Shown: in pieces, positions 713 to 13,082 of the stretch
How the letters are laid out: each line of letters starts with the position of its first letter
Numbering within the stretch: the stretch's first letter is position 1
IMG/VR virus record: IMGVR_UViG_3300033144_004508
Span: 1 to 24,224 of that record
Length of the DNA: 24,224 nt
Strand: one strand, 5' to 3'
Source: a virus
Made by a program: the position numbers and the translations under genes
Notes under the pieces: generated by a model
What the model saw: the letters and a program-made list of their open reading frames with translations, nothing else
The model's database searches: none
Told to the model about the DNA's origin: nothing

Positions 713-716
713 ATTG

Positions 717-1604: not shown

Positions 1605-1621
1605 TATCTCACCTCTTTAAT

Positions 1622-1822
1622 TTATACTGTAATTCTAACACCATAATGCGGTATGTAATAATTAAAATCATCATTATTTTTTATATACCAATCTCTAATA
1701 CCAAGCGATTCAATTCTGTAAATATTCATATATCTAATCATCTGTGTTCCAAATTTATCAGTTATACTATCGTGATCTTCAATTTCAGTCCATACGTTAT
1801 TAATATTTATCTCAATTTTCAT
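1622..1822 (-). CDS. Hypothetical protein
   Basis: 66 residues, with AGGTGATTG directly before the ATG at 1822, which abuts the stop of the upstream gene at 1823. The composition is rich in Ile, Tyr and Asn, with many alternating hydrophobic residues suggesting beta structure (WYIKNNDDFNYYIPHYGVRI). No motif is recognised. Confidence 0.6.
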   Translation of the reverse strand: MKIEININNVWTEIEDHDSITDKFGTQMIRYMNIYRIESLGIRDWYIKNNDDFNYYIPHYGVRITV

Positions 1823-2092
1823 TCAATCACCTACATTTATAACAATTGCAATGTAGTTAATAAAATCAGCTCTCGACATGGCTGGATTATGATGATCAGA
1901 TATTAAGTCGTACATATCATTAATTTCATCTATTGAAATATTTTCAGCTACATCTTTGATAATTGCTTCGTTTTTTTTTATCTCTTTTTTCATCATTTCA
2001 TTGTCTATAAGATAATATAATTTGTCAAGATACTTTTCATGGGTATTTTTTCTCTTGAATAGTGAAAGCTCATTATTCATATTTTCAACCAT
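1823..2092 (-). CDS. Hypothetical helical protein
   Basis: 89 residues, highly charged and probably mostly helical (KKEIKKNEAIIKDVAENISI, then DEINDMYDLISDHH). AAAAGGAGAATAGAA gives a strong SD for the ATG at 2092. Three bases separate it from the upstream gene ending at 2095. No known domain is recognised. Confidence 0.6.
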   Translation of the reverse strand: MVENMNNELSLFKRKNTHEKYLDKLYYLIDNEMMKKEIKKNEAIIKDVAENISIDEINDMYDLISDHHNPAMSRADFINYIAIVINVGD

Positions 2093-2094
2093 TT

Positions 2095-2229
2095 CTATTC
2101 TCCTTTTATTATTGCATTTTCTTTTTCAGTTAGCTCAATGCCGTACTTTTTCTTAATAGCAATAGCTTCCCTTATATTTGCAATTGCACGAAAAATCCTT
2201 GCATTATGTAGTTTTCTTTCTTTATCCAT
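2095..2229 (-). CDS. Hypothetical basic 44-residue protein
   Basis: The frame from the ATG at 2229 (AAAGGAAAAACATC upstream) encodes MDKERKLHNARIFRAIANIR, then EAIAIKKKYGIELTEKE..., ending at 2095. It is basic and predicted helical from its periodicity. Its stop overlaps the SD of the next gene, the usual arrangement in this operon. Function unknown. Confidence 0.55.
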   Translation of the reverse strand: MDKERKLHNARIFRAIANIREAIAIKKKYGIELTEKENAIIKGE

Positions 2230-2273
2230 GATGTTTTTCCTTTTTTATAGATTTATTAATCCATCTAATATAA

Positions 2274-2381
2274 TTAATACACAACAACATAACCTTGCTC
2301 TGTGTATTTATCAGCCATTGCAGGAACGCCATAGTCAACAAACTTCCATTCGCCATTTACTATTTTATATAATTTTATCAT
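2274..2381 (-). CDS. Short MIKLYKI-family protein (paralogue of 437-712)
   Basis: 35 residues from the ATG at 2381, which follows AGAGGAGACGGAG. The open frame extends further upstream, but the SD and the match to 437-712 fix this start. MIKLYKIVNGEWKFVDYG aligns with MVKLYKIIDNQLKLINYG, and both continue to a QGYVV/QGYIV strand. The copy here stops where the other adds a 55-residue charged tail. It may be a minimal independent domain or a truncated duplicate. Confidence 0.55.
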   Translation of the reverse strand: MIKLYKIVNGEWKFVDYGVPAMADKYTEQGYVVVY

Positions 2382-2451
2382 CTCCGTCTCCTCTTTTGTG
2401 TTAGTTGTTGTTTTTTTAATATAAACGCTTTTTATTACAATGCCAATCGTT

Positions 2452-2694
2452 TTATTTAACACAATTAGATTTTTTATTAAATTCATCGTAAACTTTTTTC
2501 GTGAAAATTTCAATAGTTCCTTTATGATCGCACATTTTATCCATCTCTATACGATAGAGAACTTTACCATGAAACGTTTTATATGCTTCCATTGATTCCT
2601 TCAAAGCATCCATCCAATCCGATCCATATTTAATCATTATTTCAATTGCGTATTGTATCATAGCATTTTCGCTAATAGATTTTTCACATTCCAT
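2452..2694 (-). CDS. Hypothetical protein
   Basis: 80 residues with TAGGAGG seven bases before the ATG at 2694. It is mostly helical by eye (ISENAMIQYAIEIMIKYGS, then WMDALKESMEAYKTF) with a CDHKG turn around residues 55-59. No domain is recognised. Confidence 0.6.
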   Translation of the reverse strand: MECEKSISENAMIQYAIEIMIKYGSDWMDALKESMEAYKTFHGKVLYRIEMDKMCDHKGTIEIFTKKVYDEFNKKSNCVK

Positions 2695-2695: not shown

Positions 2696-2785
2696 TTAGC
2701 CTCCTATATAATAAGGTGTTTCGATTTTTAAAATCTCATCAGTAATGGTCACATAACCATTATACACTTTATATTCATTCGCACA
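2696..2785 (-). pseudogene. Probable gene remnant
   Basis: One frame of this interval encodes NEYKVYNGYVTITDEILKI and a few more residues to a stop that overlaps the start of the next gene by the usual few bases. The frame is blocked upstream by a TAA and has no ATG with an SD; the only internal start is a GTG. The texture and downstream spacing look like a real gene that lost its 5' end through a frameshift. Low confidence. Confidence 0.3.
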
Positions 2786-2983: not shown

Positions 2984-3000
2984 CTGCAAACCATGTGCCA
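2984..3000 (-). promoter_or_regulatory. Sigma-54-type promoter of the leftward operon
   Basis: On the minus strand: TGGCACATGGTTTGCAG, with GG (2999-2998) and GC (2987-2986) separated by exactly ten bases, as in the RpoN -24/-12 consensus TGGCAC-N5-TTGC. It continues with TACTATATAAAC, an extension shared by the other four promoters of this type in the window. It would read the small genes from 2960 down to 190. Confidence 0.7.
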
Positions 3001-3167
3001 CATGCCATGAAAATGAGAAATAATTTATAAGTTATTATAATCATTAGAAATAAAACATTTATCAATATAATCATTAAAAGATATAATTATCTATGTGCAA
3101 AAAAAAATGTATTATATTTGTACAGTTTTATGACATCGTTATAAGTTGTTAAAATTATTACATTTAA

Positions 3168-3212
3168 AGTGTATTGTTTTAATGCATTAAATCGAGTGTA
3201 CAACAATACACT
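3168..3212. repeat. 11-bp inverted repeat in the divergent control region
   Basis: AGTGTATTGTT at 3168-3178 is perfectly inverted at 3202-3212, with a 23-nt spacer. It lies between the leftward sigma-54-type promoter and the rightward promoter at 3298. It may be a two-site operator or form a cruciform or hairpin. No T tract follows. Confidence 0.45.
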
Positions 3213-3224
3213 ATTCGTATTAGC

Positions 3225-3254
3225 TAAAAAGTGACAATTTTTGTCATATTGACA
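3225..3254. promoter_or_regulatory. Putative activator-binding element, copy 1
   Basis: This 30-bp segment is identical to 8243-8272. It contains the palindrome TGACAATTTTTGTCA overlapping a second one, TGTCATATTGACA. It lies about 225 bases upstream of the sigma-54-type promoter at 2984-3000, a normal distance for an enhancer-binding activator site. It also lies about 45 bases upstream of the rightward -35 at 3298. Confidence 0.55.
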
Positions 3255-3297
3255 TTTTTTTTTGCAAAATGTTTATTGTAAAAAATTAATTTATTGC

Positions 3298-3326
3298 TTG
3301 ACACCTATCAATATGTTTGATATGTA
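3298..3326 (+). promoter_or_regulatory. Sigma-70-like promoter with overlapping inverted repeat
   Basis: TTGACA (3298-3303), a 17-base spacer and TATGTA (3321-3326) precede the rightward operon. TATCAA at 3306-3311 and TTGATA at 3317-3322 form an inverted repeat with a 5-nt centre inside the spacer and -10, a typical place for a repressor. The -35 is perfect and the -10 poor; the same -10 (ATATGTAT) recurs at 5835. Confidence 0.45.
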
Positions 3327-3379
3327 TTTTTTAAAAATAAAAAAAGATATTGAAATGAAATTAATTATGGAGGGTTAAC

Positions 3380-3424
3380 ATGGAACAAGAAAAAATGTTA
3401 CACGATTTAAAACCCGGAGACTAA
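3380..3424 (+). pseudogene. 14-codon frame, remnant of a MEKKLQDLRVGD-type gene or leader peptide
   Basis: ATG at 3380 with GGAGGG seven bases upstream opens MEQEKMLHDLKPGD and a stop. This matches the start of the 88-residue protein at 12096 (MEKKLQDLRVGDYV). The SD is the best in the area, and the stop is one base before the next ATG (3426). It is either a gene truncated after its first 14 codons or a retained leader that couples translation to the next gene. Confidence 0.45.
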
Positions 3425-3425
3425 T

Positions 3426-3686
3426 ATGAGTAGTGGATATTTCGATTATAGGCAACATCGAATGGATGACATAATAGAAGCAATTGAAGATGTTGTTGAG
3501 AATAATGATGCTGTATATTCTTACAATCAATCATTTATCAATGAATTAATAAATGCGATAAGAGCGCTTAAAATAGCATACATCTACACACATAGAATAG
3601 ATTATTTATTGTCAGGCGATGATAGCCAAGAAACATTCTTAGAAAGACTTAGAGACAATCTAAATGAAATAGAAACGGAGGATTAA
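3426..3686 (+). CDS. Hypothetical acidic protein
   Basis: 86 residues, acidic and probably helical (DDIIEAIEDVVENNDAVYSY, then a second helix ending in DNLNEIETED). The SD (CCGGAGA) lies inside the preceding 14-codon frame, and the stop codon touches the ATG of the next gene (GAGGATTAAATG), so the three are probably co-translated. No family is recognised. Confidence 0.65.
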   Translation: MSSGYFDYRQHRMDDIIEAIEDVVENNDAVYSYNQSFINELINAIRALKIAYIYTHRIDYLLSGDDSQETFLERLRDNLNEIETED

Positions 3687-3941
3687 ATGATAGATTATCA
3701 AGAATTCACAAGTAAGAATACACCCAAGATTGAAAGGGATAAGTTGGGCATAGGTAGCATTTTTTCGAATACAGCAACATGCCTTCTTTGTGGATGCACG
3801 ATAAGATCAAGAAACAGGCACGATTTTAGAACTTGTTCATGCGGAAAATTATCAGTTGATGGTGGAAGCTGGTACATCAAGAGATCGTTTGAAACAATTA
3901 ACTCTTTTCGGAATAATGTTGTATTATATGATGACGTATGA
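3687..3941 (+). CDS. Small zinc-ribbon phage protein
   Basis: 84 residues. The centre carries CLLCGCTIRSRNRHDFRTCS, then CGKLSVDGGSWYIKR. This spaced CxxC...HDF...CxCG...VDGG pattern is common in small phage proteins; I believe it corresponds to the DUF7695 family but could not check. The four cysteines (near residues 32, 35, 50 and 52) most likely bind zinc. GGAGG lies directly upstream of the ATG. Molecular role unknown. Confidence 0.7.
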   Translation: MIDYQEFTSKNTPKIERDKLGIGSIFSNTATCLLCGCTIRSRNRHDFRTCSCGKLSVDGGSWYIKRSFETINSFRNNVVLYDDV

Positions 3942-3966
3942 TTTATTTTAAATGGAGGTTGTAAAA

Positions 3967-4158
3967 ATGCATTTCATAGAATTAACACGTACTGACAAAA
4001 AAAATATTATTGTAAATATCGAAAAAATAGTAGAGATTGTTGATTTAAAGAAATTTAGGAGGATTCTGTTTGCAATTCAAATAGATAATGATTACGGCTA
4101 TGAAGATGTTGTCGAAACTACAGAGGAAATAATGGTGAAAGGTTATAAGGCGCTATAG
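3967..4158 (+). CDS. Hypothetical beta-rich protein, FlbD-like in pattern
   Basis: 63 residues from the ATG at 3967. An ATG 15 bases earlier is in frame, but the SD GGAGG (3954-3958) overlaps that codon, so the later start is preferred. The pattern of an initial strand (MHFIELTRTDKKNIIVNIEK), a loop, another strand, and a C-terminal VETTEEIMV resembles small FlbD-type proteins that are frequent in phages and Gram-positive genomes. That resemblance is by eye only. Confidence 0.6.
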   Translation: MHFIELTRTDKKNIIVNIEKIVEIVDLKKFRRILFAIQIDNDYGYEDVVETTEEIMVKGYKAL

Positions 4159-4173
4159 GGGAGATATAACAAT

Positions 4174-4398
4174 ATGATTACATTATGGTTATTATACGCA
4201 ACAATAGTATTTTATTCTATAGTTGATGCAGTACAAACCAAAATGCTATTAGATATGGGTGCAACTGAATTAAATCCTATACTAAACTGGTTTATTGGTG
4301 AGATGAGTACGGTATATGCAATATTTTTCGTTAAGGCATTCTGGCTTATACTGTTATTTGTATTATTGAAAATTAAATCAAAAAAGGAGGCAATGTGA
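4174..4398 (+). CDS. Small membrane protein, DUF5658-like
   Basis: 74 residues with two hydrophobic segments (about 2-20 and 46-66). The first contains SIVDAVQT and is followed by GATELNPILNWFI. The D-x-x-x-T ... GA-x-E-x-NP signature matches DUF5658, a family of short two-helix membrane proteins of unknown function. The protein ends KIKSKKEAM, a positive cytoplasmic tail. GGGGAGAT precedes the ATG, and the stop overlaps the GTG of the next gene by four bases. Confidence 0.7.
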   Translation: MITLWLLYATIVFYSIVDAVQTKMLLDMGATELNPILNWFIGEMSTVYAIFFVKAFWLILLFVLLKIKSKKEAM

Positions 4399-4658
4399 AT
4401 ATTGATGAAGTATATACAAGGCTAAAAGTAGTTGAAAATAATATGAAAGAAATTGCACAAATATTTAAAGATGACGGTATTGAGATGGATTCCATATTGT
4501 GTGAGTTCTGGACAAAATACAATGAAGGGATTGATGTCAAGATTTGGAATGAGTCATGCTATATTCTAAAGGGCGCCGAGAACGATGCTTTCCCGATAAA
4601 GATAGTAGATATCACCACTGCTTTGTTTCGCAGAAAAATTTTATTTCGTAAGTTTTAA
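4395..4658 (+). CDS. Hypothetical protein ending in LFRKF
   Basis: 87 residues, starting with GTG at 4395 in the overlap ATGTGA and served by AAAGGAGG at 4384-4390. Helical N-terminal half (RLKVVENNMKEIAQIFKDDG). The last nine residues, RRKILFRKF, resemble the end of the otherwise different protein at 8295-8489 (YKKEVLFRKF), and the DNA there is also alike (TTTTATTTCG...TTTTAA). No known domain. Confidence 0.6.
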   Translation: MNIDEVYTRLKVVENNMKEIAQIFKDDGIEMDSILCEFWTKYNEGIDVKIWNESCYILKGAENDAFPIKIVDITTALFRRKILFRKF

Positions 4659-4669
4659 AGGTGGTGCAT

Positions 4670-4969
4670 ATGAAAAAAATACTCTATCTACACTTAAAAA
4701 CAAAATATTTTGAACAAATTAGATGCGGTGAAAAGACTGAAGAATACAGGCTACATGGTAACTATTGGTGTAGTCGTTTAGATTTTACAACATACGATGA
4801 AATACATGTATTAAAGGGGTATCCTAAAAAAGGCGATTCGTCGAGAAGATTGATCTTCCCTTGGAATGGATATCAAATAAAGAAAATCAACCATCCTGAA
4901 TTTGGTAACGATGAAGTTTGTGTATATGCTATTAGACTATGCAATGATGATTTGATAGAATTCTATTAA
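4670..4969 (+). CDS. ASCH-domain protein
   Basis: 99 residues. The N-terminal LYLHLKTKYFEQIRCGEKTE and YRL, then YDEIHVLKGYPKKGDSSRRL, and IKKINHPEFG..VCVYAI near the C-terminus match small phage ASCH proteins. ASCH folds are PUA-like and bind RNA or modified bases; some members cleave RNA. The substrate here is unknown. The ATG at 4670 is preferred because AAAGGTGG lies just before it; the frame also has GTG codons at 4661 and 4664 within or beside that SD. Confidence 0.75.
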   Translation: MKKILYLHLKTKYFEQIRCGEKTEEYRLHGNYWCSRLDFTTYDEIHVLKGYPKKGDSSRRLIFPWNGYQIKKINHPEFGNDEVCVYAIRLCNDDLIEFY

Positions 4970-5005
4970 AATTAGATTTAAAATATGTAATAAATGGTGA
5001 TAACA

Positions 5006-5262
5006 ATGCAAATTAATAAAAGACTTGGTAAGCTTAAAATTGATTACGAATACATCTACAATAAGCCACATCTCATCACAGAAGCCCTTTATAGATTACG
5101 TGCAGTTCCGTAGAGATAGATAAAGCACATACTGTAATCTCTGATGAGTTCAATACGGTAAATATAGGGGATGTCATACCTTACTATGATTTATTTTTAA
5201 CATGTGATACAGATGGTGAAGTAAACAAAATTAGCACAAGGAAGCGTGACGAAGTTAACTAA
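5006..5262 (+). pseudogene. Small gene split by a frameshift
   Basis: ATG at 5006 (GGTGATAAC upstream) encodes MQINKRLGKLKIDYEYIYNK and continues to RLRAVP, then a TAG at 5111. In another frame the sequence continues without a break from about 5110 as VEIDKAHTVISDEFNTVNIG and on to RKRDEVN, ending at 5262. Both halves look like normal coding sequence, so one gene of about 86 codons seems to have lost its frame near 5108-5113. No family is recognised. A sequencing error would look the same. Confidence 0.5.
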
Positions 5263-5286
5263 GCTTACGAAAGGAAACCTATATAA

Positions 5287-5697
5287 ATGCGTGAAACTAA
5301 AAAACATTTAGATGCGTTTGAAGAATATGTGTTGTTAGGGAGTTACCGAAGTTATGCTAATTTGGCAATTTCTTTGTCTGTCAGCAAAGTTTCTATAGGG
5401 CGAGTCTCCCTGCGAGACATTGCTAATTCTAAGCAAATCGCCAAAGTTACTGATAGGTCAATAGTTGCCACAAAGGCAAACTATAGAAAAGATATCGAAG
5501 ACAATATGAAAATTATCAGAGCCACGATCTTATCTGCGATTGACCCTATAACTAAGAGACTAAACATAACAACCAAGACACCAGGTGACATAAACGCCTT
5601 AACCAACGCATATGAAAAACTCGCAAAGCTTGACCTACTCCTAATAGGTGAAAGCACTGGAAATGAAACGGTCACGATTAGTGTTGATGTTGAATAA
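5287..5697 (+). CDS. Putative terminase small subunit, HTH region apparently shortened
   Basis: 136 residues. The start KKHLDAFEEYVLLGSYRSYA, then NLAISLSVSKVSI, matches the N-terminal helix-turn-helix region of phage small terminases that normally continue with a WSxxFxWxxR segment before an RD motif. Here VSKVSI runs straight into GRVSLRDIANSK, as if about nine residues had been lost in frame. The C-terminal part (NALTNAYEKLAKLDLLLIGE) fits the oligomerisation region. It would recognise the packaging site and recruit the large subunit at 15204. It lies about 9.5 kb from that partner, whereas the two genes are usually adjacent. Confidence 0.55.
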   Translation: MRETKKHLDAFEEYVLLGSYRSYANLAISLSVSKVSIGRVSLRDIANSKQIAKVTDRSIVATKANYRKDIEDNMKIIRATILSAIDPITKRLNITTKTPGDINALTNAYEKLAKLDLLLIGESTGNETVTISVDVE

Positions 5698-5811
5698 AGA
5701 TTGTTGACAATTTTGAAAGTTTAACAAAACGCAACACACTAATTTATTAACACAAAGACAACTTTCTGTACGGGCGGGAGACTTCTGTGCAGGAAATAAC
5801 CAAAATAACAC

Positions 5812-5840
5812 TTGACCTTTAATAAAAAGCCTAATATGTA
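5812..5840 (+). promoter_or_regulatory. Possible sigma-70-like promoter
   Basis: TTGACC (5812-5817), a 17-base spacer and TATGTA (5835-5840) lie in the 235-base gap before the 5933 gene. The -10 sequence ATATGTAT is the same as at 3320-3327. No gene with a convincing start is seen in 5698-5932; a 22-codon frame at 5835 lacks an SD at proper spacing. Confidence 0.35.
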
Positions 5841-5932
5841 TCACACGATCAGCGGAGGGAAATCATTTCAAAGAAAAACAACAGGATATAATTCAACAAA
5901 ATAAAGAATTAAAAAAATAGCGGAGGTAAAAT

Positions 5933-6058
5933 ATGTATGAGATTATTTTTCTAGTATTGCTTAGTTTGTGTGTCAATATTTGCATGTTGGCTATGTGTTC
6001 GGATTTGGATTATGTGGTCAGATTTTTAATTTACGGTTGGAAACACAAGGTGATATGA
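5933..6058 (+). CDS. 41-residue membrane peptide
   Basis: ATG at 5933 with a strong SD (GCGGAGGTAAAAT). The product begins MYEIIFLVLLSLCVNICMLA, a single membrane-spanning helix, followed by MCSDLDYVVRF and a short basic tail. The stop is one base before the next start (TGAAATG), so it is probably coupled to 6060-6371. No family is recognised. Confidence 0.55.
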   Translation: MYEIIFLVLLSLCVNICMLAMCSDLDYVVRFLIYGWKHKVI

Positions 6059-6059
6059 A

Positions 6060-6371
6060 ATGAAAAGACGCATAATGGAAACATCAATCATGACAAGTCG
6101 TGGAGCATCAAGGGTCATCACATACGGCTATGACACAAAGATACCAGGACTTGCAGTTATGAGAGTTACTTGCACCGGAAAGCTTTTTACGTCAATTCAT
6201 GTACGAAGCGGGCTTTCAATATTGTTATACGATGAGTCAGCGATGAGGATTAAAAGATTCGTAGAAAAATATCTTAAAGATTTTGATTTCCTTTTAAATG
6301 CTGACAACTTAACTAAGGATAGAAGCCTTTGGCGATGCGTACGCGCACATAAGTCTAAAGAAGGATTGTAA
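6060..6371 (+). CDS. Hypothetical basic protein
   Basis: 103 residues, basic, with an N-terminal MKRRIMETSIMTSRGASRVI and a central strand-rich region, ending WRCVRAHKSKEGL. AAGGTGA upstream serves as SD inside the previous gene. No known domain is recognised. The following 248 bases (6372-6619) contain no gene with a convincing start. Confidence 0.6.
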   Translation: MKRRIMETSIMTSRGASRVITYGYDTKIPGLAVMRVTCTGKLFTSIHVRSGLSILLYDESAMRIKRFVEKYLKDFDFLLNADNLTKDRSLWRCVRAHKSKEGL

Positions 6372-6619
6372 GAATTGGTACACTGCCATGAAAAGTTTAA
6401 TAATATCTTAAAAGCAATACTTGACACGCATCAATAAGCATAATACGTTTTGTTGAAAAAAGATCTACTGAAAGTATTGATTGGTTGGGATAAAACGTTG
6501 TTAATTCTTGCTAATTCGATGGTAGGTCAATATTACAACTTGACTTTTGTTGGCAAGCCTGATATATCTATTGAATTAAAGGCAAAATCTTTTATTTGAT
6601 TCCAATCCGGAGGTAAGAA

Positions 6620-6940
6620 ATGGATAAGAAAAAGGCAAGGGTAGCGCTAAGGAAAAGCATCAAACACTGGTGTATTGATATTAGGAAGCCATTTTTTTCT
6701 GGTGATAGTATATTTGAAAATTATTGGATAAAAGATGGTACTAAGGTAAAAATGTACGGTAATGACTGCGAGTTATGCAAGCTATATAATTACAAGTGCT
6801 ATATGTGCCCACTATCACTATTTGGGAGCAAGTGTAACGATAGAAGCAGCGAATATTCTATCTTTCGAAGAGATTTAAATCTAAAATCAGCAAACAACAT
6901 GATAACTGTATTAATTAAAGCATATAAGGAAGTACTGTAA
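6620..6940 (+). CDS. Cysteine-rich hypothetical protein
   Basis: 106 residues with GGAGG eight bases before the ATG. The N-terminus is basic (MDKKKARVALRKSIKHWCID); the centre has CELCKLYNYKCYMCPLSLFG and SKC, four or five cysteines that could form a zinc site. A similar layout is seen in 717-1010 on the other strand. It is the last gene of the rightward operon. Function unknown. Confidence 0.65.
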   Translation: MDKKKARVALRKSIKHWCIDIRKPFFSGDSIFENYWIKDGTKVKMYGNDCELCKLYNYKCYMCPLSLFGSKCNDRSSEYSIFRRDLNLKSANNMITVLIKAYKEVL

Positions 6941-6955
6941 AACATAATTACCAAT

Positions 6956-7003
6956 GAGGTGTATGATATCCATAAAAAGGACATAATTAAAATCATACAC
7001 CTC
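6956..7003. repeat. 12-bp inverted repeat between convergent operons
   Basis: GAGGTGTATGAT (6956-6967) is perfectly inverted at 6992-7003, with a 24-nt AT-rich spacer. It sits between the stops of the rightward 6620 gene and the leftward 7011 gene. The design (12-bp arms, long spacer, convergent stops) is the same as at 129-180. A bidirectional transcript end is plausible though no U tract follows. Confidence 0.55.
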
Positions 7004-7010
7004 TATGCAA

Positions 7011-7172
7011 TCATACTATCTCATATCCATCGCAGTCTATGATATAGTCCTGGACGATTTCTGTTAATTCTTCATCTGTACAAATCATATCAAGTGATCT
7101 TTCTCTATTAAACATATCATCGTTTGCAGAAATTTCTATCTCAGATACTTCTCCGTAAATTGTTTCAATCAT
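7011..7172 (-). CDS. Hypothetical acidic 53-residue protein
   Basis: ATG at 7172 with AAGGAGG directly upstream encodes MIETIYGEVSEIEISANDDM, then FNRERSLDMICTDEELTEIV and an acidic end (QDYIIDCDGYEIV). It overlaps the previous gene by eight bases. It is the last gene of the leftward operon. No family is recognised. Confidence 0.55.
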   Translation of the reverse strand: MIETIYGEVSEIEISANDDMFNRERSLDMICTDEELTEIVQDYIIDCDGYEIV

Positions 7173-7344
7173 TTAATTGCCTCCTTGTATTATAATCGCT
7201 ATAATTATTTTGCAATAACTCATTATATACTTTAATTAATTTTGATGCGAAGATAAAATCTTCATCGATGATAGGTTCCTTGATGTTTATGCAAAAATGT
7301 TTTATGATTTCCGCTAATGCTGTCATTGCCTCTGACTTATCCAT
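7165..7344 (-). CDS. Hypothetical 59-residue helical protein
   Basis: ATG at 7344 preceded by GGGAGGTAGATA. The product reads MDKSEAMTALAEIIKHFCIN, then IKEPIIDEDFIFASKLIKVY and NELLQ, all probably helical. Its 3' end contains the SD and start of the next gene, so the two are probably translationally coupled. Confidence 0.55.
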   Translation of the reverse strand: MDKSEAMTALAEIIKHFCINIKEPIIDEDFIFASKLIKVYNELLQNNYSDYNTRRQLND

Positions 7345-7357
7345 TATCTACCTCCCT

Positions 7358-7564
7358 TTAGTACGCAATTAACCTATATATACCATGATTTATTTCCTCT
7401 ATTTGGCACGGCCTACATCCAGATACATCACCGCATGTACAATTATTGATACCACATAGATTTCTACGGGCGGTTGTTATCTGGTTGTGTGTTAATATAC
7501 CATCTTTTTTTACAATTACGTTACATTCTGTGTCGTGATAATTATTAGTAAGTTTTACTTTCAT
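7358..7564 (-). CDS. Hypothetical cysteine-containing phage protein
   Basis: 68 residues. It starts MKVKLTNNYHDTECNVIV and has a central CGINNCTCGDVSGCRPC cluster with five cysteines, probably a small metal-binding knuckle. The SD AAAGGAGAAT lies in a 37-bp stretch shared exactly with the start of 7847-8053. No defined family is recognised. Confidence 0.65.
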   Translation of the reverse strand: MKVKLTNNYHDTECNVIVKKDGILTHNQITTARRNLCGINNCTCGDVSGCRPCQIEEINHGIYRLIAY

Positions 7565-7594
7565 TTTTTATTCTCCTTTTTTATTTATTGTTTT
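7558..7594. repeat. 37-bp direct repeat over a start region, copy 1
   Basis: The segment is identical to 8047-8083. On the plus strand it begins CTTTCATTTTTTATTCTCC and contains the SD and first codon (ATGAAAG) of the leftward genes at 7564 and 8053. Related, imperfect versions precede the genes at 7781 and 11698. Identical initiation cassettes would allow coding regions to be exchanged by recombination. Confidence 0.6.
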
Positions 7595-7781
7595 TAAGAT
7601 GATCTTTCATTTTTTCGTCAATAACGCTATCTGAAACAAGACAATCAATACATACCTGTTCATGCCATGGCGCTTGTTCAGTTTCGTGGCAAATGCAATG
7701 TAGCTCAGAATCAAGTTCATATTGTTTTTCACATCTATCACAAACATATTTTATTGGTTTTAAATAATTTTTTGGCTTCAT
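7581..7781 (-). CDS. Small zinc-ribbon-like protein
   Basis: 66 residues with two cysteine pairs, CDRC near residue 14 and CIDC near residue 46, plus CICHET between them: a likely treble-clef or ribbon zinc site. AAAGGAGAATACA gives a strong SD for the ATG at 7781. No specific family or function can be named. It is 65 bases downstream of the 7847-8053 gene. Confidence 0.65.
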   Translation of the reverse strand: MKPKNYLKPIKYVCDRCEKQYELDSELHCICHETEQAPWHEQVCIDCLVSDSVIDEKMKDHLKNNK

Positions 7782-7846
7782 TGTATTCTCCTTTTTTGTT
7801 TTATTGTTTTTATTATCACAATATTTCTATTACAATCATTAGAGTA

Positions 7847-8053
7847 CTATTTGATACTGACAGTTTTCTCAACCCATAAAATTCCATCACTTAAAGAATC
7901 AAAATCCTTGTGTTCACCGTGAACACGTGCAAGATAATATCCATTTCGTGATTCTACCTTAAGTGAAGACTGACAAATTCCAGGTGTTAGTTTATTAGGT
8001 TCTGTGTATTTCCAAGATTTTGTATCTTTATCGTATGTTAATTGACCTTTCAT
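7847..8053 (-). CDS. Hypothetical protein, first gene after a sigma-54-type promoter
   Basis: 68 residues, beta-rich in pattern (MKGQLTYDKDTKSWKYTEPN, later YYLARVHGEHKDFDSLSDGI). The ATG at 8053 has AAAGGAGAAT upstream. The promoter at 8105-8122 should start transcription near 8096, giving a leader of about 43 bases. That leader contains an 11-codon frame MMTKTINKKGE. No family is recognised. Confidence 0.6.
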   Translation of the reverse strand: MKGQLTYDKDTKSWKYTEPNKLTPGICQSSLKVESRNGYYLARVHGEHKDFDSLSDGILWVEKTVSIK

Positions 8054-8083
8054 TTTTTATTCTCCTTTTTTATTTATTGTTTT
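8047..8083. repeat. 37-bp direct repeat over a start region, copy 2
   Basis: Identical to 7558-7594; it covers the SD and start codon of the 7847-8053 gene. The flanks differ immediately outside the repeat. Confidence 0.6.
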
Positions 8084-8104
8084 CGTCATCATGCCTATAT
8101 ACTA

Positions 8105-8122
8105 CTGCAACCCGTGTGCCAA
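8105..8122 (-). promoter_or_regulatory. Sigma-54-type promoter
   Basis: Minus strand: TTGGCACACGGGTTGCAG, with GG (8120-8119) and GC (8108-8107) ten bases apart. This is very close to the RpoN consensus. It continues TAGTATATAGGC, as in the other members. It would read 8053 down to 7011. Confidence 0.75.
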
Positions 8123-8242
8123 GTCTTATGAAAATGATAAATTTTCATAAAAAAGCTATATGTATTTAAAATCATTATATAAAATATATTATAATTAAAA
8201 ATATAATCATTCCAGCAATTTTATACATTACATGACTTACAA

Positions 8243-8288
8243 TAAAAAGTGACAATTTTTGTCATATTGACAAACTTTTTGTCATATT
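8243..8288. promoter_or_regulatory. Putative activator-binding element, copy 2
   Basis: The first 30 bases equal 3225-3254, with TGACAATTTTTGTCA overlapping TGTCATATTGACA. A further half site TTTTTGTCATATT follows (8276-8288). It lies about 120-165 bases upstream of the -24 element at 8120, within the range used by enhancer-binding activators of sigma-54 polymerase. It also adjoins the end of 8295-8489. Confidence 0.6.
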
Positions 8289-8294
8289 AGCTAT

Positions 8295-8489
8295 TTAAAA
8301 TTTCCGAAATAAAACTTCCTTTTTGTATATATCATCAGCTTTAATATACATACTGTTCGCAGAGCATCGTGATGCTTGATCACCAGCATAGAATAGAATA
8401 TCAGCATCCTTATTCAATTTTAAGATTTTCTCAAATGCCTTGTCAGATATTTTTCTGAGTCTTTTTATTTCGATTTCGTTTAGTAACAT
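8295..8489 (-). CDS. Hypothetical protein ending in LFRKF
   Basis: 64 residues from the ATG at 8489 (AAGGGGTGA upstream); a GTG three codons earlier is in frame but overlaps that SD. Helical N-terminus (MLLNEIEIKRLRKISDKAFE), a Cys-containing centre, and a tail YKKEVLFRKF. The tail is shared, in protein and DNA, with 4395-4658. Function unknown. Confidence 0.6.
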   Translation of the reverse strand: MLLNEIEIKRLRKISDKAFEKILKLNKDADILFYAGDQASRCSANSMYIKADDIYKKEVLFRKF

Positions 8490-8494
8490 TTTAT

Positions 8495-8692
8495 TCACCC
8501 CTTGTGTAATTTTATAATCATTTCAAATACTTCGTAACTACGGTCAAACATGTATCCAGGTGGTATCATGTTAGAGTCGTAGAAAGTGTTTATGCATTTC
8601 AGTATGCGGTTATATCTTTCAGTATCGTAAGCAGTGAATACATAACCATTGTGAGCTTGATAACCAGTATTTATATAACTTCTTCTTTTCAT
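8495..8692 (-). CDS. GYQAHNG-family hypothetical protein (paralogue of 10280-10477)
   Basis: 65 residues from the ATG at 8692, which has AGGAG eight bases upstream; an in-frame GTG at 8701 lies within the SD region. MKRRSYINTGYQAHNGYVFT aligns with MKLRRIYNPGYQAHNGHVFT of the 65-residue protein at 10280-10477, followed by D-x-x-RYNR and an IN pair in both. The C-terminal halves differ. A conserved N-terminal binding surface with a variable partner part is one reading. No known family. Confidence 0.7.
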   Translation of the reverse strand: MKRRSYINTGYQAHNGYVFTAYDTERYNRILKCINTFYDSNMIPPGYMFDRSYEVFEMIIKLHKG

Positions 8693-8772
8693 CTTACCCA
8701 CTCCTAATTATATTATTTTATATATTTATGGACAAATGTATTTCAGTATTATCACGATCTCCAATAAAATCC

Positions 8773-8958
8773 TTATAACATTACTTGCAAAACACATAAG
8801 CTTTTTTTAATGCAAAATCCTTCTTGGCATAATGCATTGATGTTTCTCAGACCATCGCACATAACAAAGAATCGTTCATTGCCCTTATTGTAGCCTTTAG
8901 CAACTCCATATGTTACTGTGTGTTTCTTGTTTTTGTGTTGCCATTGTTTTATCTCCAT
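8773..8958 (-). CDS. Hypothetical 61-residue protein
   Basis: The frame starts at 8958, about 22 bases after the start expected from the promoter at 8990-9007. It begins MEIKQWQHKNKKHTVTYGVA and carries FFVMCDGLRNINALCQEGFC. No clear SD precedes the ATG. The C-terminus (CIKKSLCVLQVML) is unusual and may reflect an altered 3' end. Function unknown. Confidence 0.45.
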   Translation of the reverse strand: MEIKQWQHKNKKHTVTYGVAKGYNKGNERFFVMCDGLRNINALCQEGFCIKKSLCVLQVML

Positions 8959-8989
8959 GGTTATTATTGTTTGCGTTCATGCCTATATG

Positions 8990-9007
8990 TAGCAATTTGC
9001 ATGCCAA
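8990..9007 (-). promoter_or_regulatory. Sigma-54-type promoter
   Basis: Minus strand: TTGGCATGCAAATTGCTA, with GG (9005-9004) and GC (8993-8992) ten bases apart, followed by CATATAGGCATG. It is somewhat weaker than the others (CAT for CAC). It would read 8958 to 8295. Confidence 0.6.
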
Positions 9008-9088
9008 CTGTGATAATTATTTTCATGTTAGTAAATTCAATGGTTTGTAATATTTGCCTATTTAACAGGTTGGGTAATGTTACATTTT

Positions 9089-9120
9089 TTGTCAAATAGT
9101 GTGACAATTTTTGCAATATT
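9089..9120. promoter_or_regulatory. Putative activator-binding element, variant copy 3
   Basis: TTGTCA (9089-9094) and TGACAA (9102-9107) face outward across seven bases, followed by GTGACAATTTTTGCAATATT. That string differs from the copies at 3231 and 8249 only at two adjacent bases (CA for TC). It lies about 85-115 bases upstream of the promoter at 8990-9007. Confidence 0.5.
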
Positions 9121-9332
9121 TAAAACCTATTCATGAAGTTTCTTTGGTGAGCATGTCCTGCTTGATCAAAGTATATGTAAGGATGACTGTTTAGTATTCT
9201 GTCTGGTACTATATATCCAGATCTTATTGATTGTTCAACTTTACGAACCCAAATCTTTTCAACATCGTATGTATCAGCTTCATGGTAAAGATAAAAACTA
9301 TTGCTATGGAATTCATTAAATGTATATTTCAT
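9120..9332 (-). CDS. Hypothetical protein
   Basis: 70 residues, with GGAG eight bases before the ATG at 9332. It is rich in aromatic residues and histidine (MKYTFNEFHSNSFYLYHEAD, then YDVEKIWVRKVEQSI). The start overlaps the stop of the upstream gene by four bases, so the pair is likely co-translated. No family is recognised. Confidence 0.6.
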   Translation of the reverse strand: MKYTFNEFHSNSFYLYHEADTYDVEKIWVRKVEQSIRSGYIVPDRILNSHPYIYFDQAGHAHQRNFMNRF

Positions 9333-9526
9333 TTTAACACTCCATCTATTATCTTAAACAGTTCTGTTTCAATTTGTTCGTCGCACAAATAGCCATCTAA
9401 TGCTTTTTTAAGTGCATTGGGTACGCATATATCAAATAAACACCAAACATATACCTTATCTGCCAATCCATGCCTTTTATATTTTTCTCTTAGTCGTGGA
9501 TTGATAGCATGTCCATATTCTATCAC
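9329..9526 (-). CDS. Hypothetical protein, start codon uncertain
   Basis: 65 residues if started at the GTG at 9526, which has no SD. The same frame stays open upstream to an ATA at 9565, which has AGGAGG six bases before it and would add 13 residues (x-EIKQDHYKELKEV). The best reading is a gene whose original start was ATG at 9565 and is now ATA, or which uses a rare ATA start. The rest reads IEYGHAINPRLREKYKRHGL and ends DGVLK. Function unknown. Confidence 0.55.
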   Translation of the reverse strand: MIEYGHAINPRLREKYKRHGLADKVYVWCLFDICVPNALKKALDGYLCDEQIETELFKIIDGVLK

Positions 9527-9580
9527 TTCTTTTAATTCTTTATAGTGATCTTGTTTTATTTCTATATTGTTCCTCCTAAC

Positions 9581-9934
9581 TTAAGCATGTTTTAGGTAGT
9601 AAGATTGTCCGTCAAAATCAATCTTATTGTAATCACTTTTCATGTCACTTGCCACACCTACCCAGTCTATATTGTTTATTATGAAGTCTGGAACCATTTT
9701 CGGCAAATATCCGCAAAGAACTGTTTCCTTGCATAGTTGGGTAAGACAGTCTTCGTGTATAAGGGTAAAGTTGTATGCTTCAAGATTCCTGCATTGCCAA
9801 AGAAGTAAGTTTAGTTTTGCAAGGTACTCTATGTCATTCCTCAACTTATATGATCCAAGATTCTCAAGATAATCTATTTCTTCGGCAATGTTTTCTGAAC
9901 TTATTGTTCTATCATAATTTGTTATTGTATTCAC
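9581..9934 (-). CDS. Hypothetical protein with a C-terminus like ArdA-type antirestriction proteins
   Basis: 117 residues. It begins with GTG at 9934, preceded by GGAGGGATAG. The N-terminal half is helical (NIAEEIDYLENLGSYKLRND). The end, IDWVGVASDMKSDYNKIDFD then GQSYYLKHA, is reminiscent of the W-x-x-x-A-x-D ... F-x-G-x-Y-Y tail found in many phage antirestriction (ArdA-type) proteins. That is a weak, by-eye resemblance; no DNA-mimic acidic pattern is obvious over the whole length. Confidence 0.6.
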   Translation of the reverse strand: MNTITNYDRTISSENIAEEIDYLENLGSYKLRNDIEYLAKLNLLLWQCRNLEAYNFTLIHEDCLTQLCKETVLCGYLPKMVPDFIINNIDWVGVASDMKSDYNKIDFDGQSYYLKHA

Positions 9935-9946
9935 CCTATCCCTCCA

Positions 9947-10273
9947 TTATTGTTGTTTGGTTTTAAAATGATTCTTTAAAACATATTTATTTAAATCGTT
10001 TTTGGCCATAATGTAACTTGCTTCGGCATAATTATTTAATGTACGTTCTTTGTTGTGTATAACAGTTTGTTTAATCATTGTCAAGACCTTTATAAAAAAA
10101 GTGTTTTCTTTCAATACTACAGTGTCTAAGTTAATTCCAAAACCATACTTATCAAATGTTATCTCGCTTGCGCCAACAAATTGTTCAGCTTCCATTACTC
10201 GGTAGAATATCCAAGGTAATACTTTATCATTTGCATCTGCGCCGTAATATTTTGTCATGTTCTCCGTTATCAT
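9947..10273 (-). CDS. Hypothetical protein
   Basis: 108 residues. The start at 10273 follows GGGGGG very closely; an in-frame ATG at 10258 (MTKYYGADANDK) with GGAG upstream is an alternative. The sequence has a central beta-like part (FDKYGFGINLDTVVLKENTF) and a helical C-terminus. No domain is recognised. Confidence 0.55.
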   Translation of the reverse strand: MITENMTKYYGADANDKVLPWIFYRVMEAEQFVGASEITFDKYGFGINLDTVVLKENTFFIKVLTMIKQTVIHNKERTLNNYAEASYIMAKNDLNKYVLKNHFKTKQQ

Positions 10274-10279
10274 ACCCCC

Positions 10280-10477
10280 CTATTTATTATTAATGATTGA
10301 GTTGTAAACAAACGTGCTATACAGGTAATCAAGAACGTCCTCTAGAGCAAGGTATCCATCCACTACAAGGCAGTTGATTGAGTCTTGTACACGATTGTAT
10401 CTGTCACAGTCATCTCTTGTGAATACGTGACCATTATGAGCTTGATATCCTGGGTTGTAGATTCGTCGTAGCTTCAT
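10280..10477 (-). CDS. GYQAHNG-family hypothetical protein (paralogue of 8495-8692)
   Basis: 65 residues with AGAGGATAAT upstream of the ATG at 10477. The first 33 residues share R-x-Y-N-x-GYQAHNG-x-VFT-x-x-D-x-x-RYNR-x-x-x-x-IN with 8495-8692. The C-terminal half (VDGYLALEDVLDYLYSTFVY) is unrelated and helical. Function unknown. Confidence 0.7.
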   Translation of the reverse strand: MKLRRIYNPGYQAHNGHVFTRDDCDRYNRVQDSINCLVVDGYLALEDVLDYLYSTFVYNSIINNK

Positions 10478-10488
10478 ATTATCCTCTC

Positions 10489-10641
10489 TTATTTCTTGGT
10501 TTTTGCTATCTCTTTCTTGGTTGCCTTCCTTGTACCTGACTCGGTCGAAATGTAATAAGTCTCACCTATTAAAAGCAATGCATATCCTGTATGGTATCCT
10601 GTTGATGTCCTGCTGCCTTCACTTTGTGTTATTCGTTTCAT
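10489..10641 (-). CDS. Hypothetical basic 50-residue protein
   Basis: The ATG at 10641 has AAGGGAGGGTGAC upstream, so this start is preferred over an earlier in-frame ATG at 10680 without an SD. The protein begins MKRITQSEGSRTSTGYHTGY, has a short beta hairpin (ALLLIGETYYIS) and ends in a lysine-rich tail (TKKEIAKTKK). It follows the 10643 gene directly. Confidence 0.55.
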   Translation of the reverse strand: MKRITQSEGSRTSTGYHTGYALLLIGETYYISTESGTRKATKKEIAKTKK

Positions 10642-10642
10642 G

Positions 10643-11221
10643 TCACCCTCCCTTGTTGTTTGTTGCCAAATGCTTTGCATAGTTATAGGCTACTTTCCCC
10701 AAACCATAGTCACCAATTCTGTAGGTTGTTTTCTTGCCAGACTCAATAATCCTTCTATCATGTGCGTCCTGTTCCGATTGGGTAGCTCTATTGAATAATG
10801 AGCGAGACATTGGAAGGATACGATCAACCTCTGCTGTTTTTAATTCTGCACCTACAGATACCAAATTTCTTACTTGTTCTTTTAACGGAAGTATCTCACC
10901 ACCATTGAGGCGTATTTGCTTATTGAGTGCCTTTAATATCCTACCCCTTGCCATTGGAGTCTCGCTGCCTGCAAAACCGTCGACGTTATCAAACTCTATC
11001 TTTTTAATTCTATCTATTTCTGCCTGCTCAGCATTTATCATAGCCTGCCTTTCCCTGGAAGCCTTGTTTGCACTATCACGCCCTTGTTCAGTCACAACGT
11101 ACTGCCTCGCTAATTCAATCGTTTCAAAGATAGGATTACCAAACTCGCTATCCATATTTTCCCTTACTGCATACTCTGCGCCCCTCTCAAGCCTTACTGT
11201 GTAAATATCGTATTTTTCCAT
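10643..11221 (-). CDS. Hypothetical protein, largest of the leftward accessory genes
   Basis: 192 residues from the ATG at 11221 (AAGGGAGCTATCAGG upstream); an in-frame ATG at 11251 is less likely. Layout: an N-terminal beta-rich part (MEKYDIYTVRLERGAEYAV), a charged helix rich in Ala, Glu, Arg and Gln near residues 45-75 that looks like a coiled coil, a helical middle (ARGRILKALNKQIRLNGGEI), and a C-terminal TYRIGDYGLGKVAYNYAKHL. Its base composition is visibly less AT-rich than its neighbours', which may mean separate acquisition. No known domain is recognised. Confidence 0.65.
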   Translation of the reverse strand: MEKYDIYTVRLERGAEYAVRENMDSEFGNPIFETIELARQYVVTEQGRDSANKASRERQAMINAEQAEIDRIKKIEFDNVDGFAGSETPMARGRILKALNKQIRLNGGEILPLKEQVRNLVSVGAELKTAEVDRILPMSRSLFNRATQSEQDAHDRRIIESGKKTTYRIGDYGLGKVAYNYAKHLATNNKGG

Positions 11222-11234
11222 CCTGATAGCTCCC

Positions 11235-11447
11235 TTATGATATTTGTTCATAATATGGTCTTACGTAGCCTATGCCCATGTGAGGCGCTAACTTGTCGAG
11301 GTGCCTCTTTGCACCAGATTCTGTTTTGAACATGTGAGGTGATTCACCATAGCCTACAAGGCTCTTCTTCCCATATTCCCACGGTGTTAGCGTTCCCTCC
11401 GAATTGTATTTTATGCCTGCAATGTATCCAATTAGCTTCTCTTCCAT
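11235..11447 (-). CDS. Hypothetical protein
   Basis: 70 residues from the ATG at 11447 (AGGAGGGATAAC upstream). The open frame runs further back, but without an SD. It starts MEEKLIGYIAGIKYNSEGTL, then YGKKSLVGYGESPHMFKTES and ends with HMGIGYVRPYYEQIS. A small alpha-beta fold is likely; the F-K-T-x-x-x-A-K-R-H-L stretch resembles substrate-independent phage modules but no family can be named. Confidence 0.6.
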   Translation of the reverse strand: MEEKLIGYIAGIKYNSEGTLTPWEYGKKSLVGYGESPHMFKTESGAKRHLDKLAPHMGIGYVRPYYEQIS

Positions 11448-11464
11448 GTTATCCCTCCTATTTG

Positions 11465-11698
11465 TTATATGAAGAATTTTTCCGGATAGTCCATATCGTC
11501 TACATTCTCTGTATCCATCCACGCATCAAATTTAGATTGATTTCTTTTTTCTAATTCATCCATAATCCATCCACGAACTGTAGGGACACGCCTGTCTTGA
11601 TTATTGTTAGTTTTACCAAAAAGTTTACAAAGTTCAGAAACGCTTTTTGATTTCATTGTTTGATCTACTTTTTTCATTATTTGATCTACTTTTGTCAT
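11465..11698 (-). CDS. Hypothetical protein of a plasmid/phage type ending WMDxxN...KFF
   Basis: 77 residues from the ATG at 11698, with GAGGAG eight bases upstream. The frame is open further upstream and includes MMTKTNNKRGENK, which resembles the leader peptide before 8053, but no SD supports that start. Near the start, KVDQIMK/KVDQTMK is a seven-residue repeat. The end RVPTVRGWIMDELEKRNQSK, then FDAWMDTENVDDMDYPEKFF resembles small proteins common on plasmids and phages with a T-x-R-x-W-I-x-DELE-x-R pattern. Function unknown. Confidence 0.65.
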   Translation of the reverse strand: MTKVDQIMKKVDQTMKSKSVSELCKLFGKTNNNQDRRVPTVRGWIMDELEKRNQSKFDAWMDTENVDDMDYPEKFFI

Positions 11699-11748
11699 TT
11701 TGTTTTCTCCTCTTTTATTATTTGTTTTCGTCATCATGTTCTTATAGT

Positions 11749-11767
11749 AATGCAATGCGTGTACCAA
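11749..11767 (-). promoter_or_regulatory. Sigma-54-type promoter
   Basis: Minus strand: TTGGTACACGCATTGCATT, with GG (11765-11764) and GC (11753-11752) ten bases apart, then ACTATAAGAAC. It differs from the consensus by T for C at one -24 base. It would read 11698 down to about 9120. Confidence 0.6.
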
Positions 11768-12030
11768 GTCAACAAAAAAACATAACTTTTTATAAAAAAG
11801 TTGTATATATCTAAAAATATTACATAAAATACCTTGTTTAATATGCCATAGCGACCAGACGCATAGTGCTGTGAAATAGTTATTGTCCGATATTCTGGAT
11901 AGTGTATCGTACAGTTGTGTAAAATTCATACATTGCGCATAATCATGAGATAGTAGATAGAATGACAATTAAAATTGATATCATCTATTATAATAATCAG
12001 TTATAAAAAAATGTATGATTAAATTATAAT
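11768..12030. other. Divergent control region between two sigma-54-type promoters
   Basis: About 260 bases with no convincing gene, between the leftward promoter at 11749-11767 and the rightward one at 12031-12047. A TGACAATT half site with an imperfect partner (TGACAATTAAAATTGATATC, 11963-11982) lies about 50-70 bases upstream of the rightward promoter and roughly 200 from the leftward one. It is the only sequence here resembling the elements at 3225 and 8243. Confidence 0.4.
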
Positions 12031-12047
12031 TTGGCACACTGATTGCA
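12031..12047 (+). promoter_or_regulatory. Sigma-54-type promoter of the rightward RNA-ligase operon
   Basis: TTGGCACACTGATTGCA with GG (12033-12034) and GC (12045-12046) ten bases apart, followed by GTAGTATAAAAGC. TTGGCACAC and TTGCAGTAGTATA are identical to the leftward promoter at 8105-8122 although the strand is opposite. It would start near 12058 and read the genes from 12096. Confidence 0.75.
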
Positions 12048-12095
12048 GTAGTATAAAAGCGAATTGCAAATCAACTTTGAGAAAGGGGTGTAAGA

Positions 12096-12362
12096 ATGGA
12101 AAAAAAATTACAGGATCTTAGAGTAGGCGATTATGTGTCTTGGTCATCACAATACAGAATAGGCGTAAAAACGATTCTAAGCATCACTGGGACACATATA
12201 AAAACAACTGAGGGTATGAGGTACGATATTGATACAGGCGAGCTTATAGGTGGCTATAAATGGGATACGAGTAAAATTAATATATTGACTCAAGATCGTA
12301 AGTATGAAATAGTTAAACTTATTCGTAGTTGGGTATTAGATAATAAAAAAGCAAACTACTAA
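12096..12362 (+). CDS. Hypothetical protein, MEKKLQDLRVGDYV family
   Basis: 88 residues with GAAAGGGGTG upstream of the ATG. MEKKLQDLRVGDYVSWSSQY looks like the first strands of a small beta barrel, with DTGELIGGY later and a helical C-terminus. Its first 14 residues correspond to the 14-codon frame at 3380-3424. It is the first gene after the sigma-54-type promoter. Function unknown. Confidence 0.65.
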   Translation: MEKKLQDLRVGDYVSWSSQYRIGVKTILSITGTHIKTTEGMRYDIDTGELIGGYKWDTSKINILTQDRKYEIVKLIRSWVLDNKKANY

Positions 12363-12388
12363 CAATAAATAATCAATGAGGAGCTGAA

Positions 12389-12535
12389 ATGAAAATACAT
12401 AAATTTTATAAAAAGGACGGATCTGTCCTTATTTATGCGATAGCAAAAACATTAGAGGATGCAATAAAGATAGTGGAGGGAAACAACATAAACCTCAATG
12501 ATGCATATATTGATCTTCCCAAAAAAAAGAAATAA
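12389..12535 (+). CDS. Hypothetical 48-residue protein
   Basis: ATG at 12389 with GAGGAG seven bases upstream encodes MKIHKFYKKDGSVLIYAIAK, TLEDAIKIVEGNNINLNDAY, and ends in KKKK. The beta-beta-alpha pattern looks like a real small domain; the start (K-x-x-K-F-Y-K-x-D-G) is loosely like the MVKLYKI proteins at 437 and 2274. No family is recognised. Confidence 0.55.
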   Translation: MKIHKFYKKDGSVLIYAIAKTLEDAIKIVEGNNINLNDAYIDLPKKKK

Positions 12536-12544
12536 GGGGGAAAC

Positions 12545-12757
12545 ATGGGACTATTAGAACTATTGAAAAAGATAGAAGATACTTATATCAACAACCTACC
12601 AAATATTGAAGAAATGAAACGACTTTGTTCAGGCATGGGCTGGGATGTTGAGTATAGAGATGGATTTTGCCAACGCTGGTATAATTGGCTATTGTTTAAC
12701 GATTGCGAGTATGTACTTAACATAAACGATAACGACATGAGAAATTACACATCATAG
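12545..12757 (+). CDS. Hypothetical protein
   Basis: 70 residues; AAGGGGGAAAC precedes the ATG. Helical N-terminus (MGLLELLKKIEDTYINNLPN), then a Cys- and Trp-rich middle (GMGWDVEYRDGFCQRWYNWL). No known domain. It lies nine bases after the previous gene. Confidence 0.6.
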   Translation: MGLLELLKKIEDTYINNLPNIEEMKRLCSGMGWDVEYRDGFCQRWYNWLLFNDCEYVLNINDNDMRNYTS

Positions 12758-12768
12758 GAGTTGGAATC

Positions 12769-12975
12769 ATGGAAAACCGTGACTATAAAAAAACAATTGA
12801 ACTTTCTGATAATGTGATGAAAATATGTAACGAAAATTATAGTAAAAAATGTGGCGTTTGCGGATTAAGACAAAAATGTGTTAATAGTGTTGGGCTTGGC
12901 AGACAAGGTTTTAATGAATGGATCTTGTCGGTTAATAAGTTGTGCGAAATTATAAATAAAAAAATGGAGGCGTAA
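12769..12975 (+). CDS. Small cysteine-rich protein
   Basis: 68 residues, with AGGAGTTGGAATC upstream. The middle carries CNENYSKKCGVCGLRQKC, four cysteines in a compact knuckle likely to bind zinc, flanked by helices. It resembles 717-1010 and 6620-6940 only in cysteine spacing. Function unknown. Confidence 0.6.
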   Translation: MENRDYKKTIELSDNVMKICNENYSKKCGVCGLRQKCVNSVGLGRQGFNEWILSVNKLCEIINKKMEA

Positions 12976-12977
12976 CA

Positions 12978-13069
12978 ATGGATATAAACTTTTTGACCTT
13001 GAGATCAAACTGTGTAAAAACTGCAATTTCATTGACGACAAAATATTGAGCGCTTATTTTAGCGTTTAG
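12978..13069 (+). pseudogene. Tiny gene with a frameshift after the fourth codon
   Basis: GGAGG and ATG at 12978 start MDIN, after which the frame gives an unlikely 23-residue product. One frame over, the DNA reads LFDLEIKLCKNCNFIDDKIL then SAYFSV, ending at 13069. Adding one A in the AAAC at 12987-12990 would join them. The CKNC pair suggests a former zinc-binding peptide. Sequencing error is possible. Confidence 0.4.
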
Positions 13070-13082
13070 GCGGGGTATTGAT

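Follow-up and report, generated by a model that had tools for sequence, protein, structure and literature searches.

Takeover of transcription by phages is usually ascribed to sigma-70 promoters, to sigma factors of their own or to polymerases of their own. Which system, then, would operate the small-gene blocks of a phage whose DNA carries elements of sigma-54 type, and would the phage or its host supply the proteins? The window analysed here, meaning the whole stretch of 24,224 bases from an IMG/VR virus record, is probably a fragment of a phage genome. A first-pass annotation had proposed that five GG-N10-GC elements in it are sigma-54 promoters controlling such blocks, in response to a host signal or to a phage-encoded activator. 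All five, here P1 to P5, are present in the window, and each is intergenic and directed into a small-gene block:

2985-3001, minus strand: P1 sigma-54 core GTGGCACATGGTTTGCA, then GTACTATATAAACAAGA (pattern and matrix scan; near-identical in the relative G001)
8106-8122, minus strand: P2 sigma-54 core TTGGCACACGGGTTGCA (pattern and matrix scan)
8991-9007, minus strand: P3 sigma-54 core TTGGCATGCAAATTGCT (pattern and matrix scan)
11751-11767, minus strand: P4 sigma-54 core TTGGTACACGCATTGCA (pattern and matrix scan; region duplicated from P2)
12031-12047, plus strand: P5 sigma-54 core TTGGCACACTGATTGCA (pattern and matrix scan; divergent from P4)
190-2694, minus strand: P1 small-gene block (open reading frames, all minus strand)
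7011-8053, minus strand: P2 small-gene block, five genes (open reading frames)
8295-8958, minus strand: P3 small-gene block (open reading frames)
9120-11698, minus strand: P4 small-gene block (open reading frames)
12096-14316, plus strand: P5 small-gene block, including an RNA ligase (open reading frames)
13083-13988, plus strand: the RNA ligase of the P5 block (phrog_548, E=1.6e-41)

All five sites fit the sigma-54 core TGGCAY-N5-TTGC, whose invariant GG and GC are separated by ten bases. The pattern GGYAYN5TTGC matches the window exactly five times, at P1 to P5, and none of 2000 dinucleotide shuffles reached five (mean 0.55, maximum 4). An approximate RpoN matrix, based on a consensus reportedly that of Barrios 1999, likewise ranked these sites top at 15.4-18.9 bits, with the sixth-best site at 11.8, and 100 shuffles yielded about 0.29 matches of at least 15 bits per shuffle; the comparison of a matrix with shuffled sequence that had been proposed as a check thus came out in favour of the elements. 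The extension TTGCA-K-TA-S-TATA, said to be shared by four of them, was indeed found at P1, P2, P4 and P5 and is absent from P3. The five sites are not fully independent, since P2, P4 and P5 are partly duplicated, through a 137-base direct repeat at 8050 and 11695 (78%) and an inverted copy at 12001-12060. Their description as lying immediately before small-gene runs holds for direction at all five and for distance at four, where the first start codon is ~50-65 bases 3′ of the core, a spacing also seen in many of the bacterial pilA promoters examined; P1 is separated from its first gene by a non-coding leader of ~290 bases. The plus-strand block at 3426-6940 is without an element of this kind. 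That P1 to P5 are sigma-54 promoters of phage small-gene operons is well supported by their excess over chance, by where they lie and which way they point, and by the conserved P1 core of a relative.

That relative, G001, is a 75-kb viral record whose portal and major capsid proteins are ~71% and 79% identical to those of the window (tblastn). The P1 core and the 17 bases after it are almost the same in G001, which also retains the leader, while no similarity is recognisable in DNA farther upstream; a functional promoter would be expected to show this pattern. The P1 leader folds modestly better than its shuffles (z=-2.03), and a predicted ribozyme lies near its 3′ end:

2713-2770, minus strand: type III hammerhead ribozyme, predicted (match to Rfam RF00008)

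The match extends over the full 54 positions of the model (E=1.9e-6 in a search of 321 bases) and scores 36.3 bits, below the Rfam gathering score of 48.5; the conserved core and the three stems are matched, and the element is conserved in G001. Upstream of it a leader hairpin has GTGAC/GTCAC in the window where G001 has GGCAC/GTGCC. If active, the hammerhead would cleave the P1 leader immediately 5′ of the first gene. A search for a third relative found none.

Upstream of P1, P2 and P3 the window also holds palindromes that the first-pass annotation had not mentioned:

3232-3246, no strand assigned: perfect palindrome TGACAATTTTTGTCA, candidate enhancer, 231 bases upstream of P1 (exact match)
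8250-8264, no strand assigned: perfect palindrome TGACAATTTTTGTCA, candidate enhancer, 128 bases upstream of P2 (exact match)
~8268-8284, no strand assigned: second palindrome TGACAAACTTTTTGTCA, 17 bases, after the 8250 palindrome (upstream of P2)
9080-9094 and 9102-9116, no strand assigned: two degenerate copies of the candidate enhancer, 73-95 bases upstream of P3 (site scoring)

The two perfect 15-base copies follow the pattern TGACAAnnnTTGTCA, for which 2000 dinucleotide shuffles give an expectation of 0.0015 per shuffled window. Neither P3 copy stands out from chance by itself (expected 0.65 and 1.07 times per record); taken together, the two, 22 bases apart, have the place and spacing expected of such sites, and the six top palindrome scores in the window all fall just upstream of P1 to P3. 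An upstream site of the pilA type is perfect at P1 and P2 and degenerate at P3, and P4 and P5 have no recognisable enhancer, nothing in 11768-12030 scoring above background. No match to the IHF consensus was found between enhancer and core. In G001 the perfect palindrome is absent at P1 although the core is kept, for which a different host activator could account.

The pairing of palindrome and core recurs in other phages. A scan of viral contigs for TGACAN5TGTCA, with TGGYAYN5TTGCW 72-101 bases on, found 68 stretches, against four with a scrambled palindrome; grouped by DNA the 68 make 53 clusters, and grouped by translated similarity they make 33. Only ten positions of the palindrome were specified in this search, yet the remaining ones agree on TGACAAwwwTTGTCA, and additional copies lie mostly ~20-24 and 40-44 bases away, or about two and four helix turns. 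At three loci (L169, L202 and L225), shared palindromes are flanked by divergent promoter pairs. With a stricter, twelve-base palindrome, viral loci numbered 37 at spacings of 72-101 bases, 19 at 112-141 and five at 205-234, so that spacings as long as those of P2 and P1 are found elsewhere too. The first genes of the viral loci mostly encode short proteins without known function, and a pilin was the first gene in 0 of 71. A few of the 68 matches (L188/L215, and probably also L204 and L171/L209) fall within coding sequence and are likely to be chance ones. The extended core TGGYAYN5TTGCAKTASTATA was also tried alone as a marker; its matches in 104 viral stretches were mostly one recurring sequence, apparently a piece of a phage coding gene, and the core alone is thus unsafe for this use. 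Among terminase relatives there was no general enrichment of sigma-54 sites, and the feature thus does not track the terminase lineage. Searches for named phages akin to three enhancer-bearing contigs, and for relatives of two small-block proteins, found none.

The unit's bacterial neighbours bear on the identity of the activator. A scan of bacterial genomes for palindrome and core, with the stricter palindrome, gave at least 120 loci, which among the matches listed belong to Oxalobacteraceae, Desulfobacterota, Nitrospirota, Aminicenantes and others. Again among the matches listed, the first gene is pilin-like, with a GFTLIEL-type signature, in 73 of the 117 loci for which a first gene was called, a proportion that comes from a motif-conditioned search and so shows the location of the motif without implying that only pilins have it. 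Pilin is nonetheless the commonest gene after the unit among these matches, across many phyla. At least ten loci also contain an NtrC-family activator gene, mostly beside pilins among the matches listed. L268 (Aminicenantes, 31% GC) runs from a response regulator through GTGACAAAATTTGTCA and a sigma-54 core to a pilin gene; L260 and L320 have a like order of NtrC-family gene, palindrome, core and pilin, and L257 is similar, but with its pilin start somewhat farther downstream. Judged by gene order, this is the pilR/pilA arrangement. PilR is an NtrC-family response regulator that normally activates the major type IV pilin gene pilA, and Jin et al. in 1994 reportedly described a PilR motif in P. 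aeruginosa, with which the TGTC half-site agrees. PilR and RpoN are known to act on pilA in Pseudomonas and Geobacter (PMC6058289, PMC2725144; references in PMC3333781). NCBIfam returned no PilR model, and the PilR assignment accordingly rests on gene context. Three other regulators were considered. PrsR, the PEP-CTERM regulator suggested by the taxa, was dropped because the downstream genes are pilins; RtcR, considered because of the RNA ligase, was not supported; nor was GlrR, whose site TGTCN10GACA has its half-sites arranged oppositely.

As to who supplies the proteins, the sigma-54 DNA-binding family was found in none of 35 viral records (the window, G001-G003 and 31 records from the enhancer scan), and matches to the activator family in enhancer-bearing viral records were weak or marginal, none convincing. 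This makes the host the likely source of both sigma-54 and activator. Between the host signal and the phage activator originally offered, a host activator of PilR type is the better reading, given the pilA-like enhancer and the lack of a convincing phage activator in these records; the proposal that five sigma-54 promoters control the blocks stands as regards the cores but is not fully supported for all five, as the enhancers extend only to P1, P2 and P3. Anaerobic ribonucleotide reductase and its activase are apparently encoded in G001 (translations inspected), so that the host is probably an anaerobe; a search for the host through the capsid protein in three phyla found none. We put at roughly 0.7 the probability that P1 to P5 are host sigma-54 promoters and that the palindromes of P1 to P3 are enhancers for a host activator of PilR type; that PilR binds these palindromes, and that the host possesses it, we infer.

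The palindromes might instead be bound, at the same sigma-54 promoters, by a different host NtrC-family activator, such as a PilR paralogue or a protein with a similar recognition helix. The bacterial loci leave some room for this, as 44 of the 117 have other first genes among the matches listed and PilR is assigned by context, and Myxococcus offers a precedent in NmpR, a second NtrC-like regulator that acts on the pilS-pilR region (PMC6211767). We nevertheless hold it unlikely, given the predominance of pilins over many phyla and the activator genes that mostly adjoin them, both among the matches listed. Supply of the activator by the phage, as an enhancer-binding protein encoded outside the window, would fit a window that is only part of a phage, and an unrelated jumbo phage record, G009, does contain a Sigma54_activat match of 30.8 bits. 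It becomes very unlikely in view of G001, where the match is 14.5 bits, below the cut-off and in a clamp-loader-like protein, of the 31 further enhancer-bearing records, which may be incomplete and yielded one marginal match (20.6 bits), and of the 68 viral loci, from which the activator signature motif is absent.

Two further explanations give the palindromes or the cores another role. Intergenic palindromes in phages commonly serve as operators, and the copy at 3232 also lies upstream of the rightward block; even so, we consider it extremely unlikely that the palindromes are operators of a phage repressor, unrelated to the cores, since those at 8250 and 9080-9116 sit between tandem blocks of one direction, where they serve no evident divergent promoter, and since palindrome and core are paired in unrelated phages 17 times as often as in the scrambled control. 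Ordinary sigma-70 promoters, in which TA(G/C)TAT would be the -10 box and the GG/GC pattern chance, are scarcely credible: P4 alone has a usable -35 (TTGACT, 17 bases, TACTAT; 9/12), P1, P2, P3 and P5 have none at the right distance, sigma-70-like matches barely exceed chance in DNA so rich in AT (112 vs 85), and the five GG/GC cores exceed every shuffle.

If the palindromes are indeed PilR-type enhancers, sigma-54 RNA polymerase would wait, closed, on the -24/-12 core until PilS phosphorylates PilR, which would bind the palindromes TGACAAnnnTTGTCA 70-230 bases upstream, reach the polymerase by DNA looping and open the promoter using ATP, so that turning on the host pilus switch would turn on the phage operons. 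The purpose may be that a phage entering by the pilus meets only cells with active PilR. P4 and P5 might respond to the same activator through degenerate sites, or to another activator.

The closest known system is PilS/PilR-RpoN control of pilA in Pseudomonas aeruginosa, Geobacter sulfurreducens and Myxococcus xanthus, which shares the core with upstream TGTCA-type palindromes, the position of the unit before bacterial pilin genes and a similar start-codon spacing. The phage unit differs in leading into small-gene blocks, not pilins, in its several copies per genome, in the absence of pilR from the phage and in spacings of up to 231 bases. The sigma-54 regulons of Desulfovibrio vulgaris also pair cores with upstream NtrC-family sites and include the pilus regulator DVU2114 (PMC4641369, PMC3333781), but they comprise host genes only, and DVU2114 acts on Tad-type pili. 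In Salmonella, the accessible portions of two papers (PMC9879122, PMC3844500) report phage genes that interact with the sigma-54 regulon; there, however, prophage genes act on a host sigma-54 operon (RtcR) or show changes when rpoN is mutated, and PilR enhancers in phage promoters are not described in those portions. Our search of the open-access literature, outside which most subscription papers lie, found sigma-54 regulons and prophage effects, and no PilR-type enhancers in phage promoters.

At least three small-gene blocks of this phage thus appear to stand under promoters built like the bacterial type IV pilus switch, and the presence of such promoters in dozens of unrelated phages suggests that many phages read the host's pilus regulator. 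We favour, with somewhat less assurance than our reading of the window itself, the view that the PilR enhancer and sigma-54 core of host pilA promoters have passed into many unrelated phages of environmental bacteria, by separate acquisition or by exchange, and that the host's PilS/PilR switches the small-gene operons of these phages. If so, a host two-component system would decide the timing of phage operons across dozens of lineages, phage gene expression would be tied to the piliation or surface state of the host, and two separately studied topics, pili as phage receptors and pilus regulation, would be joined. The enhancer-core signature would then serve as a searchable DNA marker for such phages, and predicts that their hosts possess PilR and RpoN.

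The leader of P1, a sigma-54 core on the minus strand, contains a predicted type III hammerhead ribozyme that is kept in G001, a 75-kb viral record from a relative of the window phage, and that would split the operon messenger from a structured leader RNA of ~230 bases.

RNA-related features in the window and in L134, a stretch of G001
Window 2713-2770, minus strand: type III hammerhead ribozyme (predicted), within the P1 leader
L134 4579-4632, minus strand: type III hammerhead ribozyme (predicted), counterpart of the P1-leader copy
Window 13083-13988, plus strand: RNA ligase (phrog_548), within the small-gene block downstream of P5

Upstream of its own P1, where the window has a palindrome, G001 carries a direct repeat, AAAAGTGTAYGACTGTCCAG (L134 near 4980-5120, minus strand), perhaps a site for a different activator. 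The RNA ligase possibly has a role in repairing cleaved tRNA. Ahead of the terminase gene, a ~600-base stretch of the window without clear genes holds CCTGTTCCTTCT-type units repeated in tandem (14946-15020).

The unrelated 378-kb jumbo phage record G009 (L130) contains two strong sigma-54-like cores, and one of its open frames, of 777 residues, matched the Sigma54_activat domain at 30.8 bits.

Across L133-L136, G001 encodes many GIY-YIG-like endonucleases; it also appears to have genes for replication proteins of its own and for a ribonucleotide reductase of the anaerobic type, the latter pointing to an anaerobic host.
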